Assembly: GCA_017634595.1 (NCBI GenBank)
Contig: JAGBNC010000024.1
Span: 42,952-106,951, forward strand
Direction: 5' to 3'
From: Bacteroidales bacterium
GTDB lineage: Bacteria; Bacteroidota; Bacteroidia; Bacteroidales; UBA932
Length of the DNA: 64,000 nt
A program made the translations under genes and the position numbers. The notes under the pieces were generated by a model that saw nothing but the letters and a program-made list of their open reading frames with translations, was not told the DNA's origin and ran no database searches. Of this stretch, positions 20,588 to 64,000 are shown piece after piece (the first letter of the stretch is position 1; the number at the start of each line of letters is the position of its first letter).

Positions 20588-21217
20588 TTAATCAGATTTG
20601 GGAGGGCAAAGGTAAGATTTTCCTATTTCAATTACAAATTTTTCTTTAAAATATTCATCATTAAGCCAATCTTCGATGCTCCAGACCCTCACCCGGCCGG
20701 GGTCCACGCCCCAGCGGCGGGTCAAATCAGAGATCTCGCCGAGCACATTTCCACCTTTGAGACAAAGAATGCTGTGATCGAAATGCCCCTTTACCCATGG
20801 ATAGAGATCCTCAAGCGAGGCCACGGCCCTGGTAACCACCCAGCCGAAGTTGCGCCCGAGAGATTCAGCCCTCGCATTGACGCACTGCACGTTACTGAGC
20901 CCAAGCCCTTCTGCCACGGCCTGTGCTACCCGGATCTTCTTTCCAATAGAATCACAGAGTGTAAAATGGGCATCAGGGTACTCCAGCGCCAGCGGAATAC
21001 CCGGGAAGCCACCTCCCGTCCCTAGATCCAGCACCTCCTCTCCGTCCAGCACGCCTTCAGGATAATGGAGTTCGAGGTACCGGGCAATTGAGAGCGAATG
21101 CAGGATATGATGCTTGTAGAGATTGTCTATATCTTTACGCGACACCACATTAATGCGTTCGTTCCACTCCCGGTACAGCTCCAGGGCAAGAGCAAAATCC
21201 GTTTCGCTTGTTCTCAT
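20588..21217 (-). CDS. rsmG: 16S rRNA (guanine(527)-N7)-methyltransferase RsmG
   Basis: A 209-residue SAM-dependent methyltransferase that modifies G527 of 16S rRNA. The family motifs are seen in order: EWNERINVVSRKDIDNLYKHHILHSLSI, the SAM-binding VLDLGTGGGFPGIPLA, TLCDSIGKKI, NARAE and VVTRAVASLEDLYPW. Length is normal. The ATG overlaps the TGA of the upstream sigma/GH36 frame by 4 nt (ATGA), so translation is probably coupled. Confidence 0.96.
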   Translation of the reverse strand: MRTSETDFALALELYREWNERINVVSRKDIDNLYKHHILHSLSIARYLELHYPEGVLDGEEVLDLGTGGGFPGIPLALEYPDAHFTLCDSIGKKIRVAQAVAEGLGLSNVQCVNARAESLGRNFGWVVTRAVASLEDLYPWVKGHFDHSILCLKGGNVLGEISDLTRRWGVDPGRVRVWSIEDWLNDEYFKEKFVIEIGKSYLCPPKSD

Positions 21218-23970
21218 TGGCGTTCAAGCAGCAGCACAGTGCTCTGATAGGGCTTGTTGAGGCTGAGGTTGAGACCGAAATTCATAAGGTAGTCACCGCC
21301 GAACTCCATGCCGTCACCCCAGAAAGACTTGCGCACGGGCGCAATCTCGCTTACCTTGTAGCGCGCCGCCGGATCGAGGCCTCCGGCCCTGAACTTCGGC
21401 ACGAATCCCCTGCCGTTGTACTGCAGGCAGAAAGCAAAGAGCACAGCCTTGGACTTGTCCTTGCTGGCATACATAAGAGCGTAATGATCTCCATCGTAAG
21501 GAGATGATATACGGTACAGGTCACCGTCGAACACAATGTCACGGAACTGTTTGTACTCAGTAAGGTAGCCCTTGATATAAGTCTTTTCCTCATCGGTGAG
21601 CTGCTTGGGCTGGATCTCCATACCAAGACGCGCCGAGGCGGCCATATCGCAGCGGAACTTGAGAGGAATGACACGTCCGGTCTGGTGGTTGGGACTTGCA
21701 GAGATATGCGATCCAAGTATTTGGGCGGGATATATCAAGCTGGCTCCGTATTGTATGAACGCACGGCAGTGGGCATCTGTATTGTCGCTGGCCCACACTT
21801 CATTGGCCCAGTTGAGCACGCCGTAATCCATCCTGCCGCCACCTGACGAGCAGGACTGCAGGAACACTTTAGGATATTTGGCTCGGATACGGTCCAGGAC
21901 ACTGTAATACCCCTTGACATAATCGACCCAGAAATTGGACTGGTTGCTCTCGTAGTTGGAGCCCACATTGTACACATGGCGGTTGCAGTCCCACTTGATA
22001 TAATCAATGTCACCGAGCTGCATGGTCCGGTCGAACACGCCGAACACGAAATCCTGCACCTTGGGGTTGCTAAGGTCGAGCAGCAGCTGGTTGCGGGCCG
22101 GGTAAGCCTCACGGCCTTTTTCGTTTACCACCCAATCGGGATGCTTGAGGTACAGATTGGACTTAGGATTCACCATCTCCGGTTCAATCCATATACCGAA
22201 CTTAAGGCCCTTTGAATGAGCATAATCGGCAAGATAGCCTATTCCCTCAGGAATCTTCTTGACATTGAGTTCCCAGTCGCCAAGTCCAGCCTTGTCATTA
22301 TCGCGGGCGAACTCGCCGTTACCGAACCAGCCGTCATCAAGTACGAACATTTCGAGCCCCATGGAAGCGGCGTCGTCAATCATGTCGGTGAGGGTCTTTG
22401 TGTCGAATGCGAAGTATGCACCCTCCCAGCTGTTGAGCAGCATCGGGCAGTGCATTGAAGCATCGTACATGCCGTAACGGCGGGCCCAGTCATGCAAGTT
22501 GCGGCTGGCCTGGCCGGCACCGGATGTGCTATAGGTAAATACCGCCTCGGGGGTGATGAATGAAGCGCCACCTGCAAGGGTGTATTCGGCTCCGGTGGGA
22601 TGGATACCGGACAAGATGTACATGCGGCCGGCCTCGTCCATCTGGAAGTTAATCTTGTAATTGCCGCTCCAGCGCAGGGCGCCGGCAATCACTTCACCGT
22701 GAGTCTCGTCCAGGGTATCCGAATCAAGGCTCAGCAGGAAAGATGGATTGGAACGCTGGGTGGCTCGGGCGCCGTCGCGGCACTCTATCACCTTGGCTCC
22801 GTGGGTAAGACGCTCAGTTTCAATGCAGTTCTCATTGGCCCACGCACCATTGAAATGGGTGAGAGTATATTTCGGAGCCCACAGCGGAATACTGGCGGAG
22901 TAGAAATTGCGCAGCACTACGCTCTTCTTGGCATCGTTGGTTATCTCGGAATGCATAAGGATGACGTCCTCTTCCCAGTAAGCATCAAACACCAGGCACA
23001 CCCGCAGCGGCTGCTTCGAATCACGGAGATTGACCTTGGTCCGCACCAGGTCGGGAGAAAGTGTCTCCTGCTCCCAGCTCTCATAGATCAGCTCGGTATT
23101 GAGTCCGCCGTCGGGATAGGTGACGGCAAGGGCGGGCTCGAACACAAACTTGCCTCCGGCAGTCGGATACATAGGGATATCCCCTACCGAATGAGAATCG
23201 GCATAGGCCGAGTACTTGGTAAAGTCGGCGGCATTTGATACGGACGGACCGTAATGCCTGTAGTTCAGCGGGCCTCCCACCTTACCCACCATCACAATGG
23301 AGGTCCCGGCAGTATTGACGGAAATGTAGTGATAATCCGCAGCAAGGGTCTGGAGCGAAAGCCCCAGCATGGCAAAAACGATGATAATCAGGTTCTTCAT
23401 TTTGTCGAGCATTTGTTTTGCGCGTCTGATCCGGGTTCTGACTGTATTCAGTTCGAGTCCCGTCTCTTCAGCTATTTCTTTATATTGCATTCCTTCGATA
23501 AGGCGCTTGCGCGCTATGTCACGGTACAGTTCGGGGAGACCGTCGACCATAGATTCCGTCTCTTCCCGGGCCTCGGTCTTGATGATCTCATCCAGAGCGT
23601 CCTCTTCCACTCCGCTCATGGCATCAACAGCATTGAGCGTACGCGGATCGTCGTCAAATGAGACGTATCCCCTCTGGCGCCTCTTTTCCTGGTCGATGAC
23701 ATCGAGCGCGGTATTATGCGCGATGCGCACGAGCCACACCTCGAATGAGCCCAGTTCAGGATTGAAACTGCTGATCTGACGGAAGGCTTTCTCAAATGTC
23801 TTTGAACACACATCTTCTATGTAGAAGTGATCAAGCTGCGTCATGGTTTTGCGCAGGTACGAGCGTACGGAGGATATATTGGCATCCCAGAGAGCCGTAA
23901 ACGCCGTGCCGTCGCCTGAAATCGCCCTTCCGACCAGTTCATCAATGTGCTTCGAGCCAGTTTGCGCCAT
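21214..23970 (-). CDS. ECF sigma factor fused in frame to signal-peptide-bearing GH36 alpha-galactosidase
   Basis: One uninterrupted 918-codon frame. Residues 1-190 are a complete ECF sigma factor: region 2 (ALWDANISSVRSYLRK, EDVCSKTFEKAF, EVWLVRIAHNTALDVI) and region 4 (LPELYRDIARKRLIEGMQY, KEIAEETGLELNTVRTRIRR). Codon 191 is an ATG that opens a normal signal peptide (MKNLIIIVFAMLGLSLQTLA) and a full-length 728-residue GH36 enzyme: FVLDDGWFGN, FGIWIEPEMVNP, the nucleophile in IKWDCNRHV (Asp471 of the GH36 part) and the acid/base box WASDNTDA. No stop separates them. Either two genes have lost the stop between them and the enzyme starts at 23400, or a membrane-tethered sigma-enzyme is made. 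The start overlaps polA by 29 nt and the end overlaps rsmG by 4 nt. Confidence 0.85.
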   Translation of the reverse strand: MAQTGSKHIDELVGRAISGDGTAFTALWDANISSVRSYLRKTMTQLDHFYIEDVCSKTFEKAFRQISSFNPELGSFEVWLVRIAHNTALDVIDQEKRRQRGYVSFDDDPRTLNAVDAMSGVEEDALDEIIKTEAREETESMVDGLPELYRDIARKRLIEGMQYKEIAEETGLELNTVRTRIRRAKQMLDKMKNLIIIVFAMLGLSLQTLAADYHYISVNTAGTSIVMVGKVGGPLNYRHYGPSVSNAADFTKYSAYADSHSVGDIPMYPTAGGKFVFEPALAVTYPDGGLNTELIYESWEQETLSPDLVRTKVNLRDSKQPLRVCLVFDAYWEEDVILMHSEITNDAKKSVVLRNFYSASIPLWAPKYTLTHFNGAWANENCIETERLTHGAKVIECRDGARATQRSNPSFLLSLDSDTLDETHGEVIAGALRWSGNYKINFQMDEAGRMYILSGIHPTGAEYTLAGGASFITPEAVFTYSTSGAGQASRNLHDWARRYGMYDASMHCPMLLNSWEGAYFAFDTKTLTDMIDDAASMGLEMFVLDDGWFGNGEFARDNDKAGLGDWELNVKKIPEGIGYLADYAHSKGLKFGIWIEPEMVNPKSNLYLKHPDWVVNEKGREAYPARNQLLLDLSNPKVQDFVFGVFDRTMQLGDIDYIKWDCNRHVYNVGSNYESNQSNFWVDYVKGYYSVLDRIRAKYPKVFLQSCSSGGGRMDYGVLNWANEVWASDNTDAHCRAFIQYGASLIYPAQILGSHISASPNHQTGRVIPLKFRCDMAASARLGMEIQPKQLTDEEKTYIKGYLTEYKQFRDIVFDGDLYRISSPYDGDHYALMYASKDKSKAVLFAFCLQYNGRGFVPKFRAGGLDPAARYKVSEIAPVRKSFWGDGMEFGGDYLMNFGLNLSLNKPYQSTVLLLERQ

Positions 23971-26566
23971 AATTGCATTCAACAGTAAGTGGAACGTTAA
24001 GTTTAATTATGCCCTGCATGGAATCGGTAACCAGCGGGCGTACAGTCTCTATCTCCTGCGACGGCACCTCCAGCAGGAGTTCGTCATGAATCTGCAGCAC
24101 CATCTTTGATTTCAGGCCACGGGCGCGCAATTCCTTGTCCACCTCTATCATGGCCAGCTTGATGATGTCGGCACTGGTACCTTGAATCGGGGCGTTGACG
24201 GCATTGCGTTCAGCAAATGAGCGGACGGTGCCATTGCCGCTGGTGATGTCGGGGACATAACGGCGCCGGCCGAAAAGTGTCTGGACATATCCGTCACGGC
24301 GTGCGGCAGCGAGCGTAGCATCTATCCACGCACGTATGCTGGGGAAAGAATTGAAATAGTCTTCGATGAGTTTAGCGGCCTCGGAACGTGAGCAGCCCAG
24401 GTTCTGGCTAAGGCCGAAAGCGGAGATGCCGTACATGATGCCGAAGTTGGCAGTCTTGGCTATGCGGCGCTGGTCGGAGCTCACCTCGGCCACCGGTATC
24501 TGAAATATCTTGGCTGCAGTGGCTGAGTGTACGTCTATACCTTCGCGGAAGGCCGAGCAAAGGTGCTCGTCACCGCTCAGATGGGCCATGATGCGGAGTT
24601 CGATCTGGGAGTAGTCGGCGCTCATTATCACTGAAGATCTGTCCTGAGGTACGAATGCCTTGCGTATCTCACGTCCCTGCTCTGTACGAATGGGGATATT
24701 TTGCAGGTTCGGGTTGGAGCTCGAAAGCCTTCCTGTCGATGTAAGTGCCTGGTTGAATGTGGTATGTACGCGCCCGTCGCGCTCGCTTACATAGGATGGG
24801 AAAGGCTCTATATACGTCCCGAGGAGCTTGCGCAGGCCACGGTAGTCCAGTATTGCTTCTACGATGGGGCTGCGGTCGCTGAGCTCCTGCAGGGTCTTTT
24901 CGTCGGTGGGCCAGTTACCTTTCTTGGGCTTTCGAGCCTTGGGATCAAGCTTGAGCTTTTCGAACAGCACCTCTCCTACCTGTTTGGGTGAATTGATATT
25001 CAGCGATGGTTCGCCGGCAAGCTGCCTTACCTGCTGCTCACGCTGGGCGGCCTGCACACGAAGGCTGTCAGCATAGCTGCGAAGTGCGTTAAGATCGACT
25101 TTGACGCCGGCCAGTTCCATGCGCGCGAGTACTTTGAGCAGCGGTTCTTCGATGCTGTCGTAGAGTTCGCGAAGACGCTGGTCCGTGTGGTCCATTTCAG
25201 CATAGAGGGCGTCGGCCAATGGTATGAGCAAGGCGGTCTCGAGATTGTGGTCGGAGCCTTCGGGAGCCTCGTCGAACAGGCTTCCCTGGGCTGAGCCGCT
25301 GTCTGCAGTCAGGTCGATGCCAAGGTAAGCCGATGCGAGGGCGTCGAGTTTGTGGCTGCTTTCGGGGTTCAGGAGGTAGTGCAGGAGTTCTATGTCATCG
25401 AGGCGTCCCACGAGGGGCAGGCCAAGAAGATCGAGCTCTTTAATCTGTGACTTAAGGCCTATGCCGACTTTGCTTATGGAAGGGTCCCCGAGAAGTGCTT
25501 TGAACTGCCCGGGATCGCCGGAGGCAACGCCATGGGAATCAGCGACGAAGAGTGTCCCGTCGCATAGATGGACTGCTACCCTGCTGTCGGTCACAGCCCC
25601 GGAGGATACCTTTTGCGTATTGGCGGACAGATTTGGCTTCGAATCCTGTCCGTCAGAGACATTTTCGCCCACTTTGGACAGCTTTTGGGGTGAAAGCTGT
25701 CCGATTTTGCGTACAAGACGGATAAGGGACGGGAATTCGTAGAGTTTGAACAGGGCCTCCACGTCGGGTGTCCAGGCCAAGTCGAGCACCATGTCATCAG
25801 CAGTGGTCTCCAGGGGAATGTCGGTTTTGATGGTGACAAGCTCGCGGGATAGGGCGATATGGTCGCGTGCTGCCTCGAAAAGTCCCTTCTGGCGCGGGGT
25901 AAGCTCATCCAAGTGCTCATAGACAGCATCAACGGAGCCGTATTTCAAGAGCAGCTTGGAAGCCCCAACGGGACCTACGCCCTGCACTCCAGGCACATTG
26001 TCTGAGCTGTCTCCGCATATTGTGAGTATGTCTATTACCTGTGACGGGCGCTCGATACCCCATTTCTCGCATATCTCCGCCTCTCCGAGTATCTCATTGT
26101 CGGTGCCGGATTTACCGGGACGGTATTGGTACACATGCGGAGCGACCAGCTGGCCGTAGTCCTTGTCCGGTGTCACCATATACACATCAAAGCCTTCGGC
26201 GGCGCTGCGCAGCGCCATTGAGCCTATCACGTCGTCGGCTTCGAAGCCTTTGATCATGAGCACAGGTATATCCAGGGCCTTGACTATGGCGGTCAGGGGC
26301 TCCAGGGCGTCGATGACAAGCTGAGGTGTCTCGCTGCGGTTGGCTTTATACTCCGGATACAGGGTATTGCGGAAGGTGCCCCCCGGCGGGTCGAAGCTCA
26401 CCGCGATGTGGGTGGGCTTTTCCCTGTCTATCAGTTCCAGCAGGTACTTAGTGAATCCGAAGAGTATGGATGTATCCACCCCCTTGGAATTGACCATGGG
26501 GCGCCCTAGAAAGGCATAATACATCTTGAATATAAGAGCGTGGCCGTCTATTAGAAAAAGTTTCAT
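23942..26566 (-). CDS. polA: DNA polymerase I
   Basis: An 874-residue family A polymerase. Residues 1-290 are the 5'-3' exonuclease (FLIDGHALIFKMYYAF, FEADDVIGSMA, TPDKDYGQLV, GDSSDNVPGVQGVGPVGA). After a hydrophilic linker comes a 3'-5' exonuclease-like domain in which the usual first motif (DTE) is not visible; the matching stretch reads VAVHLCDGTLFVADSHG, so proofreading is probably lost. The polymerase domain is intact: SADYSQIELRIMAHLS (motif A), RRIAKTANFGIMYG (motif B) and LQIHDELLLE (motif C). ATG 26566 is the family start; the longer frame reads through the promoter into the opposite gene. It heads the string polA, sigma/GH36, rsmG, rpmH. Confidence 0.95.
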   Translation of the reverse strand: MKLFLIDGHALIFKMYYAFLGRPMVNSKGVDTSILFGFTKYLLELIDREKPTHIAVSFDPPGGTFRNTLYPEYKANRSETPQLVIDALEPLTAIVKALDIPVLMIKGFEADDVIGSMALRSAAEGFDVYMVTPDKDYGQLVAPHVYQYRPGKSGTDNEILGEAEICEKWGIERPSQVIDILTICGDSSDNVPGVQGVGPVGASKLLLKYGSVDAVYEHLDELTPRQKGLFEAARDHIALSRELVTIKTDIPLETTADDMVLDLAWTPDVEALFKLYEFPSLIRLVRKIGQLSPQKLSKVGENVSDGQDSKPNLSANTQKVSSGAVTDSRVAVHLCDGTLFVADSHGVASGDPGQFKALLGDPSISKVGIGLKSQIKELDLLGLPLVGRLDDIELLHYLLNPESSHKLDALASAYLGIDLTADSGSAQGSLFDEAPEGSDHNLETALLIPLADALYAEMDHTDQRLRELYDSIEEPLLKVLARMELAGVKVDLNALRSYADSLRVQAAQREQQVRQLAGEPSLNINSPKQVGEVLFEKLKLDPKARKPKKGNWPTDEKTLQELSDRSPIVEAILDYRGLRKLLGTYIEPFPSYVSERDGRVHTTFNQALTSTGRLSSSNPNLQNIPIRTEQGREIRKAFVPQDRSSVIMSADYSQIELRIMAHLSGDEHLCSAFREGIDVHSATAAKIFQIPVAEVSSDQRRIAKTANFGIMYGISAFGLSQNLGCSRSEAAKLIEDYFNSFPSIRAWIDATLAAARRDGYVQTLFGRRRYVPDITSGNGTVRSFAERNAVNAPIQGTSADIIKLAMIEVDKELRARGLKSKMVLQIHDELLLEVPSQEIETVRPLVTDSMQGIIKLNVPLTVECNYGANWLEAH

Positions 26567-26575
26567 ATTGAAACA

Positions 26576-61708: not shown

Positions 61709-64000
61709 CTATAGCGTACGTTTGATTTCAACGATCTGGAAGGCCTCGATGACGTCGCCCTCTTTGATATCGTTGTAGCCGGCTATGCTCATACCGCACT
61801 CCTTACCGGCAAGGACTTCCTTGACGGAGTCTTTGCCGATCTGGAGAGAGCCGAGATCTCCGGTGTAGATCACGATACCGTCTCGGATCAAGCGGACCTT
61901 GGACTTCTGTATCATCTTGCCGTCACGCACAATACATCCGGCAATTGTACCGACCTTGGAAATCTTGAATGTCTGCTTGACCTCGGCAGTAGAAATGACC
62001 TCTTCCTTCTTCTCGGGCTCAAGCATACCCTCGATACCGTCCTTGACATCGTTGATACAGTCGTAGATAACGGAATAGAGACGTATTTCGATGCCCTCGC
62101 GGTCAGCACTCTTGCGAGCCTCGACGGAAGGACGCACCTGGAAGCCGATGATAACGGCATCGGAGGCCTCAGCCAGCAGGACATCGGACTCGGAGATGGC
62201 ACCCACAGCCTTGTGGATGACATTCACGCGAACCTCTTCGGTGCTGAGCTTGATGAGCGAATCGGACAGAGCCTCAACCGAACCGTCCACATCGCCCTTG
62301 ACGATGACGTTAAGTTCCTTGAAGTTGCCTATGGCAATACGGCGGCCGATCTCTTCGAGAGTCATATGTTTCTGGGTCTTGATGCCCTGGATACGTATGA
62401 GCTGCTCACGCTTGGCTGCAATACTCTTGGCTTCTTTCTCGTCGGTGAGCACATTGAACTTCTCGCCTGCTGCCGGAGCGCCGCTCAAACCGAGCACGGA
62501 CACTGGCGTAGAGGGCCCTGCCTCCTGCACCTTCTGACCACGCTCGTTGAACATGCTCTTGATGCGTCCGTAGAAACTTCCGCACAGCACCACATCACCC
62601 TGATGAAGGGTTCCGTCCTGCACAAGCACGGTGGCAAGGTAGCCGCGGCCTTTGTCGAGGGACGACTCAATGACCGCACCGCTGGCGAGCTTGCTGGGGT
62701 TGGCCTTGAGCTCAAGCAGGTCAGTCTCGAGAAGCACCTTCTCAAGAAGCTTGTCAACGTTGATACCCTTCTTGGCAGAAATCTCCTGACACTGGTACTT
62801 GCCGCCCCAGTCTTCCACCAGGATATTCATCTCAGAAAGCTGGCGGCGGATCTTGTCGGGATCGGCGCCAGGTTTATCTATCTTATTGATAGCAAACACC
62901 ATGGGCACGTTGGCTGCCTGGGCGTGATTGATAGCCTCAACGGTCTGGGGCATCACGGCGTCGTCGGCGGCGATGATGATGATGGCAAGGTCGGTCATCT
63001 GGGCACCACGGGCACGCATGGCGGTGAAGGCCTCGTGACCAGGGGTGTCAAGGAAAGTGATCTTGCGGCCGTCCTCAAGCTTCACGCTGTATGCGCCGAT
63101 GTGCTGGGTTATTCCACCAGCTTCACCTGCAATGACATTGGTCTTGCGGATATAGTCAAGAAGCGAAGTCTTACCGTGGTCAACATGGCCCATAACGGTA
63201 ATGATAGGCTCGCGTGGCTTCAGGTCCTCGGGACGGTCGGGCTGCTCGTTGGAGTTTATCTCGCTGGTAAGCTCAGCCGTCACGAACTCTACCTTGTAGC
63301 CGAATTCTTCAGCCACAAGCACCAAAGTCTCGGCATCGAGCCTCTGGTTGATAGACACCATCAGGCCGAGGCTCATGCAAGCGCCGATAACCTTGACCAC
63401 AGGCGTATTGTTCATCAGAGTAGCAAGGTCGTTGACTGTCACGAACTCGGTGACTTTCAGCACTTTCTTCTCGGCGGCAAGCTCCATCTGCTCTTCCTGG
63501 CTGCGCTGTGCGGCGGCTTCCCTCTTCTCCTTGCGGTACTTGGCTCCGAAGTTGTTCTTCTTGCCCTCATTCATACGGGCGTAAGTCTCCTTGACCTGCT
63601 TCTGTATCTCCTTCTGCATCTCCTCCTGCTGAGCCTCGGTAAGGACTGGCTTGAGGCGGTCGCGATCGCGGTCGCGCTTGCGCTTGCCCTGGCCGGGTGC
63701 CGGCTGGGAAGATCCGTTGTTCTTGGGTTTGTCTTTCTTGCCCGCGTTGCGGTCAATATTGGCGCCGGCCTTGGCCACGTCAACTTTCTGGGCGCCTTTA
63801 CCTATGCGCTCGCGCTTGACCGGTTTGCGGTCAAATTGGCTGAGGTCCACTTTGCCGACCACCTTGAAAGGCGAAGTCGAAACGGGTGCGGGCTCCGGTT
63901 CGGGAGCGGGTGCGGGCTCCGGCTCGGGTGCGGGTGCGGGCTCCGGCTCGGGTGCAGGCGCGGGCTCCGGTTCGGGTGCAGGCGCGGGCTCCGGTTCGGG
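61709..64000 (-). CDS. infB: translation initiation factor IF-2 (partial, 5' end beyond window)
   Basis: The visible 764 codons contain the N-terminal basic linker ([12 protein letters not shown]), the GTPase domain with [25 protein letters not shown] and [10 protein letters not shown], and the C-terminal domains that bind fMet-tRNA, ending [13 protein letters not shown]-2 brings initiator tRNA to the 30S subunit. A GTG at 63862 is not the start: the frame stays open to the right edge and codes a Pro/Glu/Ala repeat, the usual variable N-terminus. ettA follows. Confidence 0.95.
63884..64000 (-). repeat. 24-bp tandem repeat coding EPEPAPAP in infB
   Basis: Four full 24-bp units (63902-63997) plus partial ends, differing at a few positions (GGCTCCGGCTCGGG against GGCTCCGGTTCGGG and small changes). 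Each codes eight residues. The array continues past the right edge. Confidence 0.9.

Follow-up and report, generated by a model that had tools for sequence, protein, structure and literature searches.

A sigma factor gene and a GH36 glycoside hydrolase gene share one conserved reading frame in uncultured Bacteroidia

A 64,000-nucleotide stretch of an uncultured Bacteroidales genome (GenBank assembly GCA_017634595.1, contig JAGBNC010000024.1, positions 42,952 to 106,951; hereafter the window) carries on its minus strand a single reading frame that joins an extracytoplasmic function (ECF) sigma factor to a signal peptide and a glycoside hydrolase family 36 (GH36) enzyme. The frame runs from ATG 23970 to the TGA at 21216-21214 and encodes 918 residues plus the stop, with no internal stops, as an initial sequence-only reading of the window had reported. 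The fused frame is no artifact, and it is both old and unusual. The likeliest reading of the sequence data, which we hold at about even odds, is that it yields two products, namely a stand-alone enzyme and a sigma factor whose signal-peptide tail might tether it to the inner membrane.

A full-length, stop-free frame was present in 11 of 400 genomes in a search of the genus, own genome included; in a search of the family, the own genome was the sole carrier among 199. A scan of genome contigs gave 79 loci, 11 of them full length, and contributed two further distinct sequences, bringing the total to 13 (22 fused entries, i.e., the window's own, L061-L071 and L140-L149, less nine duplicates). Those of the fused genomes that carry a name belong to uncultured Bacteroidales or Bacteroidia, and for three of them the title gives water buffalo or yak omasum or rumen as the source. 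The 12 other fused proteins were 74-90% identical to the window protein, with a constant junction length in all. Between 0.53 and 0.65 of fourfold-degenerate sites differ from the window sequence across the fused set and the median pairwise synonymous distance (dS) is 1.44, so that silent sites are near saturation and the shared frame must be old. A chance origin of a 918-codon frame can be dismissed because it encodes two full domains and is common to 13 distinct genomes. For the same reason a sequencing or assembly error, or a recent stop-codon loss, which the sequence-only reading had named as a finding that would undo it, can be set aside with near certainty, the names of the 11 named genomes pointing to several different assembly projects. 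A stop at the junction was seen in none of the 13 insert-bearing genomes and only in relatives that have no GH36 there.

Both parts of the protein are complete, in agreement with the original description. The sigma part matched Sigma70_r2 at residues 28-97 and Sigma70_r4_2 at 136-188 (Pfam, both above cut-off), and the enzyme part matched the GH36 N-terminal (235-466), Melibiase (470-814) and GH36 C-terminal (830-915) domains, also above cut-off. The best solved relative of the GH36 part is the alpha-galactosidase 2xn0 (E 8e-120). Residues D661 (in KWD) and D729 (in SDN) align with the motif aspartates of 2xn0 and are invariant in all 13 fused sequences; we take them to be the catalytic aspartates of GH36. 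Judged by its domains and motif aspartates the enzyme is intact, and alpha-galactosidase activity is predicted. Only two residues separate the region 4 match from the Met at 23400, and a Pfam scan of the fused protein detected no anti-sigma domain between the sigma factor and the signal sequence.

Median dN/dS values in the fused set were 0.087 for sigma and 0.102 for the mature GH36 enzyme; for the signal peptide, after 30 of 78 pairs had been dropped as saturated, the value was 0.151. All three are rough because silent distances are large. By these estimates the sigma domain and GH36 are both under purifying selection, that on sigma being strong. The ratio of sigma to polA distance was 0.82 for 78 fused pairs versus 1.07 for 153 unfused pairs, which are more distant. 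At polA distances below 0.2 it was 0.79 in fused versus 0.62 in unfused pairs, and at 0.2-0.3 it was 0.84 versus 0.93, with four unfused pairs in each class. The sigma factor may thus be mildly relaxed in the fused set. The features of the locus are as follows.

21214..23970, minus strand: whole fused open reading frame (ECF sigma factor, signal peptide, GH36), in 13 distinct genomes, own included
23401..23970, minus strand: ECF sigma domain, codons 1-190 (Pfam; region 2 at codons 28-97, region 4 at codons 136-188)
23401..23420, minus strand: putative internal translation start region, A-rich and weakly structured (A at -3, -12 and -13, A fraction, folding energy)
23392..23400, minus strand: MKN codons, present also in the sigma tail of unfused relatives such as G349 and G303, and first codons of the signal peptide (sequence comparison)
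23341..23400, minus strand: predicted signal peptide (residues 191-210); its signal peptidase I-type motif was judged by eye
21217..23340, minus strand: mature GH36 enzyme (D661 at 21990-21988, D729 at 21786-21784)
23942..23970, minus strand: 29-nt overlap of the polA 3' end with the sigma start, where silent changes are the most depleted of the whole frame
21214..21217, minus strand: 4-nt ATGA overlap of the fused-frame stop with the rsmG start, in all 13 fused genes and also at the shorter sigma genes of G027 and G011
20588..21217, minus strand: rsmG, downstream neighbor, name recognized by eye
23942..26572, minus strand: polA, upstream neighbor, name recognized by eye, start approximate

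The insertion point could be read from the nearest unfused relatives, five sister species that form a clade with the 13 fused ones. Their sigma factors end in DKMKNAE (G349), DKMKNEQ (G303), DKMKSEQ (G514 and G027) or DKMAI (G011), each followed by a stop. The fused tail is DKMKN (DNMKN in one), then GH36, then a last codon CAA (Gln) in 11 of 13. This comparison of tails places the insert after the MKN that belongs to the sigma factor and ahead of the final codon and stop of the sigma gene. The Met at 23400 is thus the sigma factor's own Met, found in the nearest unfused relatives too; an ATG occupies the codon-191 position in 15 of 29 unfused sigma genes, all of which have a stop within about a dozen codons of the junction. 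The insertion may be in frame because the sigma tail and the start of a GH36 gene share microhomology at ATGAARAAY.

The fused stop overlaps rsmG as ATGA in 13/13 cases, and ATGA follows sigma in 11 of the 29 unfused genes. Among 18 unfused genus members in which the wider locus was read, rsmG lies immediately 3' of sigma in 12 and was not found nearby in five, while G045 has two open reading frames (ORFs) between the two genes. One of these encodes a 493-residue protein that looks transporter-like by eye (L178, 8880-10361, plus strand) and overlaps the sigma end by ATGA. In G383 and G548 (L218 and L219), rsmG lies about 3 kb beyond the sigma stop, which is followed by what we presume, from resemblance, to be an mnmG-like start.

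The insert has an uneven distribution. In a FastTree tree of 51 GH36 sequences (13 fused and 38 unfused, from 52 chosen loci with duplicates dropped), the fused sequences formed one clade with support 1.0. Trees of sigma and of polA placed the 13 fused and five unfused species in one clade (100/100). A separate sigma tree included the 29 unfused genes, of which L028-L030 are only 37-39% identical. On both best trees the fused state takes four changes, of which well-supported branches force three (sigma) or one (polA). Either the insert was gained once and lost several times, or exchange brought it in more than once. The fused gene L141 of G481 (the same gene as L186, 7835-10591, minus strand) is 74% identical to the window in its sigma half and 89% in its GH36 half, a mosaic that suggests exchange or recombination between the halves. 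None of the 11 fused genomes that were searched, several of them incomplete, has a strong Melibiase match other than the fused GH36; weak partial matches, one or more per genome, occur in five of them. The unfused G027 and G011 have a strong Melibiase match elsewhere in the genome.

We propose that a secreted GH36 gene entered the last codons of a polA-linked ECF sigma gene in frame, at least once, this being the direction of change that we infer. Ribosomes starting at the sigma ATG would then find no stop until the end of GH36, so that sigma would be made only with a signal peptide and GH36 attached, barring frameshifting or drop-off, and a second, internal start at ATG 23400 would give the enzyme alone. 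In the long product, the signal sequence would direct GH36 to the periplasm and signal peptidase I would cut it off. What remained would be a sigma factor with a hydrophobic tail of ~20 residues, N-in, presumably a stub of the sort cleared by RseP-type proteases. E. coli RseP is reported to cut type II membrane proteins whose periplasmic parts are small, remnant signal peptides among them (PMC8144685, citing Saito 2011), and the own genome has one M50/RseP-type match. The sigma factor would thus be briefly or conditionally membrane-tethered, its release following export and clearing of the tail.

Because of the start-site marks at ATG 23400, the GH36 enzyme is probably also made alone. In Flavobacterium, initiation is reported to be aided by A at -3, -6, -12 and -13 and by low structure (PMC6847099). 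All 13 fused genes have A at -3, -12 and -13 of ATG 23400. Position -13 falls on the wobble base of codon 186, which is CAA or ATA in the 13 fused genes and CAG or ATG in the five unfused sisters; A at this position occurs in none of the five sister genomes without the insert and in 6 of the 29 unfused genes. Relatedly, K185 is encoded by AAA in 13/13 fused genes versus 3/27 Lys codons of the 29 unfused genes and 2/4 in the sisters. The mean A fraction from -20 to -1 is 0.53 at the fused junction, 0.30 at real starts (n=97) and 0.23 at internal ATGs (n=1227). The mean minimum free energy of folding (MFE) from -35 to +35 is -6.3 kcal/mol at the fused junction, -10.6 at real starts (n=97) and -17.5 at internal ATGs (n=600), and, ranked by openness among the 70-nt windows of its ORF, each junction reaches the 90.1-100th percentile. 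At the same codon, the 29 unfused genes have a mean MFE of -12.4 and an A fraction of 0.38, and the five sisters -10.7 and 0.41. The plain alternative offered at the outset, that the enzyme starts at ATG 23400, gains from these marks.

The other half of that alternative, loss of the stop that separated an ordinary pair of genes, was rejected as far as seen, since the matches listed included no relative with sigma and GH36 as separate neighbors. Among the matches listed, at least 54 of 73 genomes have both a sigma and a GH36 match, always on different contigs, which could also be a neighboring pair split by an assembly break. This count was made by eye on genomes picked from the genus search for two matches, and at least one more such genome, G101, was left out. 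A programmed frameshift ending sigma at the +1 TGA of ATGA was also considered and dropped, as that TGA is forced by Met-Lys and the preceding codon is AAA, AAG or AAT.

The hydrophobic core of residues 191-210 is 12-13 residues long in 12 of the 13 fused proteins and an 18-residue run in one. Judged by eye, all 13 have a cleavage motif, with A, G or (in the window) T at -3 and A or S (Ala in the window) at -1. The fused signal peptide resembles the leaders of unfused GH36 enzymes, core length included, and so looks like an ordinary, cleavable signal sequence rather than an anchor. The sequence-only reading had considered translation through the whole frame with the signal sequence as a membrane anchor; the conserved frame and a sigma factor with no other stop favor the first part, and the cleavable look of the signal sequence disfavors the second.

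Several points weigh against the two-product scheme. The base at -6 is G in 13/13 fused genes, although A at -6 is a positive determinant in Flavobacterium, and an ATG stands at -12 in 11 of 13, contrary to the reported depletion of AUG near Bacteroidota starts. The context score of ATG 23400 is at the 75th-98th percentile of internal ATGs and only the 0-11th of real starts. The unfused sister G027 is as open at this codon as the fused mean (-6.3), and a stretch encoding a signal peptide may be weakly structured for reasons of its own. Silent change at codons 184-190 is not depleted overall (observed/expected 0.96, rank 331 of 911), in contrast to the polA overlap, where the ratio is 0.06 at codons 3-9; only the wobble bases of three K/Q codons change little (a value so low came up in 39 of 20000 draws), and this contrast was picked post hoc. 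Export of a signal sequence lying behind a 190-residue domain is assumed. Finally, the insert is patchy, and its absence from 5 of 18 clade members makes it dispensable. Separately, codon usage was skewed farther upstream: at codons 162-164 (23479-23487, minus strand), Gln162 is CAA in 12/13 and Lys164 is AAA in 10/13 fused genes, above the unfused preference.

The same patchiness fits a fusion without regulatory meaning, in which a polA-sigma-rsmG operon captured an internally started enzyme and sigma merely tolerates the tail. We consider this possible, but less likely than two products with a tethered sigma. The start-site marks and the status of the fused copy as the only strong GH36 match in the 11 genomes suit it, and since ATGAARAAY-like ends are common to both sequences, the in-frame state may need no selection. 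On the other hand, the sigma factor is strongly conserved, and an exported appendage of 728 residues is unlikely to leave it unaffected. Moreover, in most species a single substitution would make a stop of junction codon 185, 186 or 190, yet no species has one there, even though T is seen in some species at 106 of 149 fourfold columns rich in C and at 11 of 16 rich in A. From these columns we calculated a chance of ~0.03 that no stop would appear without selection, a post hoc figure based on three codons.

A stronger regulatory claim is that the protein is a one-piece glycan sensor, in which an uncut signal anchor holds a periplasmic GH36 domain that senses alpha-galactosides and proteolysis frees sigma. 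The continuous frame in 13/13 genomes and purifying selection on both halves accord with it, as do precedents for one-piece sigma factors (ECF52 SCO4117 and IutY) and for a GH10 domain on an anti-sigma factor (RsgI6), all compared below, and four same-genus ECF sigma frames that lead into a hydrophobic helix and a barrel-like domain. We nevertheless regard it as improbable: the small-residue cleavage motif is present in all 13, core length is that of unfused GH36 signal peptides, an anti-sigma domain is absent from the fused protein by Pfam, and the marks of an internal start stand at ATG 23400. An ordinary digestive role can explain retention of GH36, given its intact motif aspartates and its being the only strong GH36 match in the 11 genomes, and glycan sensing by this domain is speculation. 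Equally doubtful is the broader idea of a one-piece enzymatic transcription factor, in which the export signal of the attached alpha-galactosidase would keep the ECF sigma factor at the inner membrane and export, cutting or substrate occupancy of the enzyme would set sigma activity.

The four same-genus frames (from G024 twice, G278 and G054) are one-piece ECF sigma frames in which a hydrophobic helix is followed by an end resembling an outer-membrane beta-barrel.

L188, 858-2549, minus strand: barrel-ended sigma frame
L189, 958-2535, minus strand: barrel-ended sigma frame
L207, 684-2387, plus strand: barrel-ended sigma frame
L208, 740-2440, minus strand: barrel-ended sigma frame

The helix starts at most 10 residues past the region 4 match in L189, L207 and L208. 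The barrel Pfam matches are weak, L189 alone passing the cut-off. In G003 and G008, parts homologous to these proteins are separate neighboring frames. Of four long sigma frames inspected, L187 and L190 were spurious, L188 and L189 being real one-piece proteins, and nine further ones comprised the barrel-ended L207 and L208 and seven with ordinary separate sigma frames. Candidate second GH36 fusions (L191-L194) were rejected as ordinary genes whose stop-to-stop frames are long through open upstream sequence. Elsewhere in the window, a long Pro-Glu/Pro-Ala repeat lies at the window-edge end of an open frame (61709-64000, minus strand).

The interest of the fused frame lies in a whole hydrolase with its signal peptide on a sigma factor, kept in at least 13 distinct genomes, so that the regulator is apparently made only with an export signal. 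If sigma keeps the signal-peptide tail, release of a transcription factor would be tied to protein export and signal-peptide clearance. The locus also suggests how, in a single step, an inserted gene can make the tail of a regulator the beginning of a signal peptide. Among the titles and abstracts listed by a literature search, none described sigma-hydrolase fusions or barrel-fused sigma factors in Bacteroidota.

As far as the published accounts describe them, the layout differs from those of ECF52 SCO4117, IutY and RsgI6, and the one-piece sigma factors among these carry a fused anti-sigma part. SCO4117 of Streptomyces coelicolor is reported to have sigma, a membrane segment and an extracytoplasmic carbohydrate-related domain on one chain, as here, and proteolytic release has been proposed; ECF52 proteins, reported in that account only from Actinobacteria, have a zinc-finger domain, a proline-rich region and a carbohydrate-binding domain (PMC5826349). 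By Pfam, the fused protein has neither the zinc finger (anti-sigma) nor the carbohydrate-binding domain and carries GH36 catalytic domains instead; unlike ECF52 as reported, its membrane segment is signal-peptide-like and cleavable-looking, and the portion beyond it is an enzyme whose motifs are intact. IutY (ECF243) of Pseudomonas putida, which acts in cell-surface signaling, is described as having a C-terminal membrane-bound part with a fused anti-sigma and as being freed by Prc and RseP (PMC8999054). The likeness is a sigma factor with a C-terminal fusion to a membrane-associated part, but RseP-type cleavage is here only predicted by analogy, and whereas IutY has its anti-sigma part, the fused protein gave no FecR or other anti-sigma match (Pfam). 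RsgI6 of the Clostridium thermocellum SigI/RsgI6 system likewise ties a glycoside-hydrolase-family domain outside the cell to a sigma pathway, but its GH10 domain, reported to have very low activity, is on a separate anti-sigma factor (PMC4711584), whereas here GH36 is on the sigma frame itself and no RsgI N-terminal domain was detected (Pfam). With secreted GH36 enzymes of the 2xn0 family, the fused enzyme shares all three domains, both motif aspartates and an ordinary-looking signal peptide; it differs from them in lying in frame behind a sigma factor, whose own Met is its start codon.

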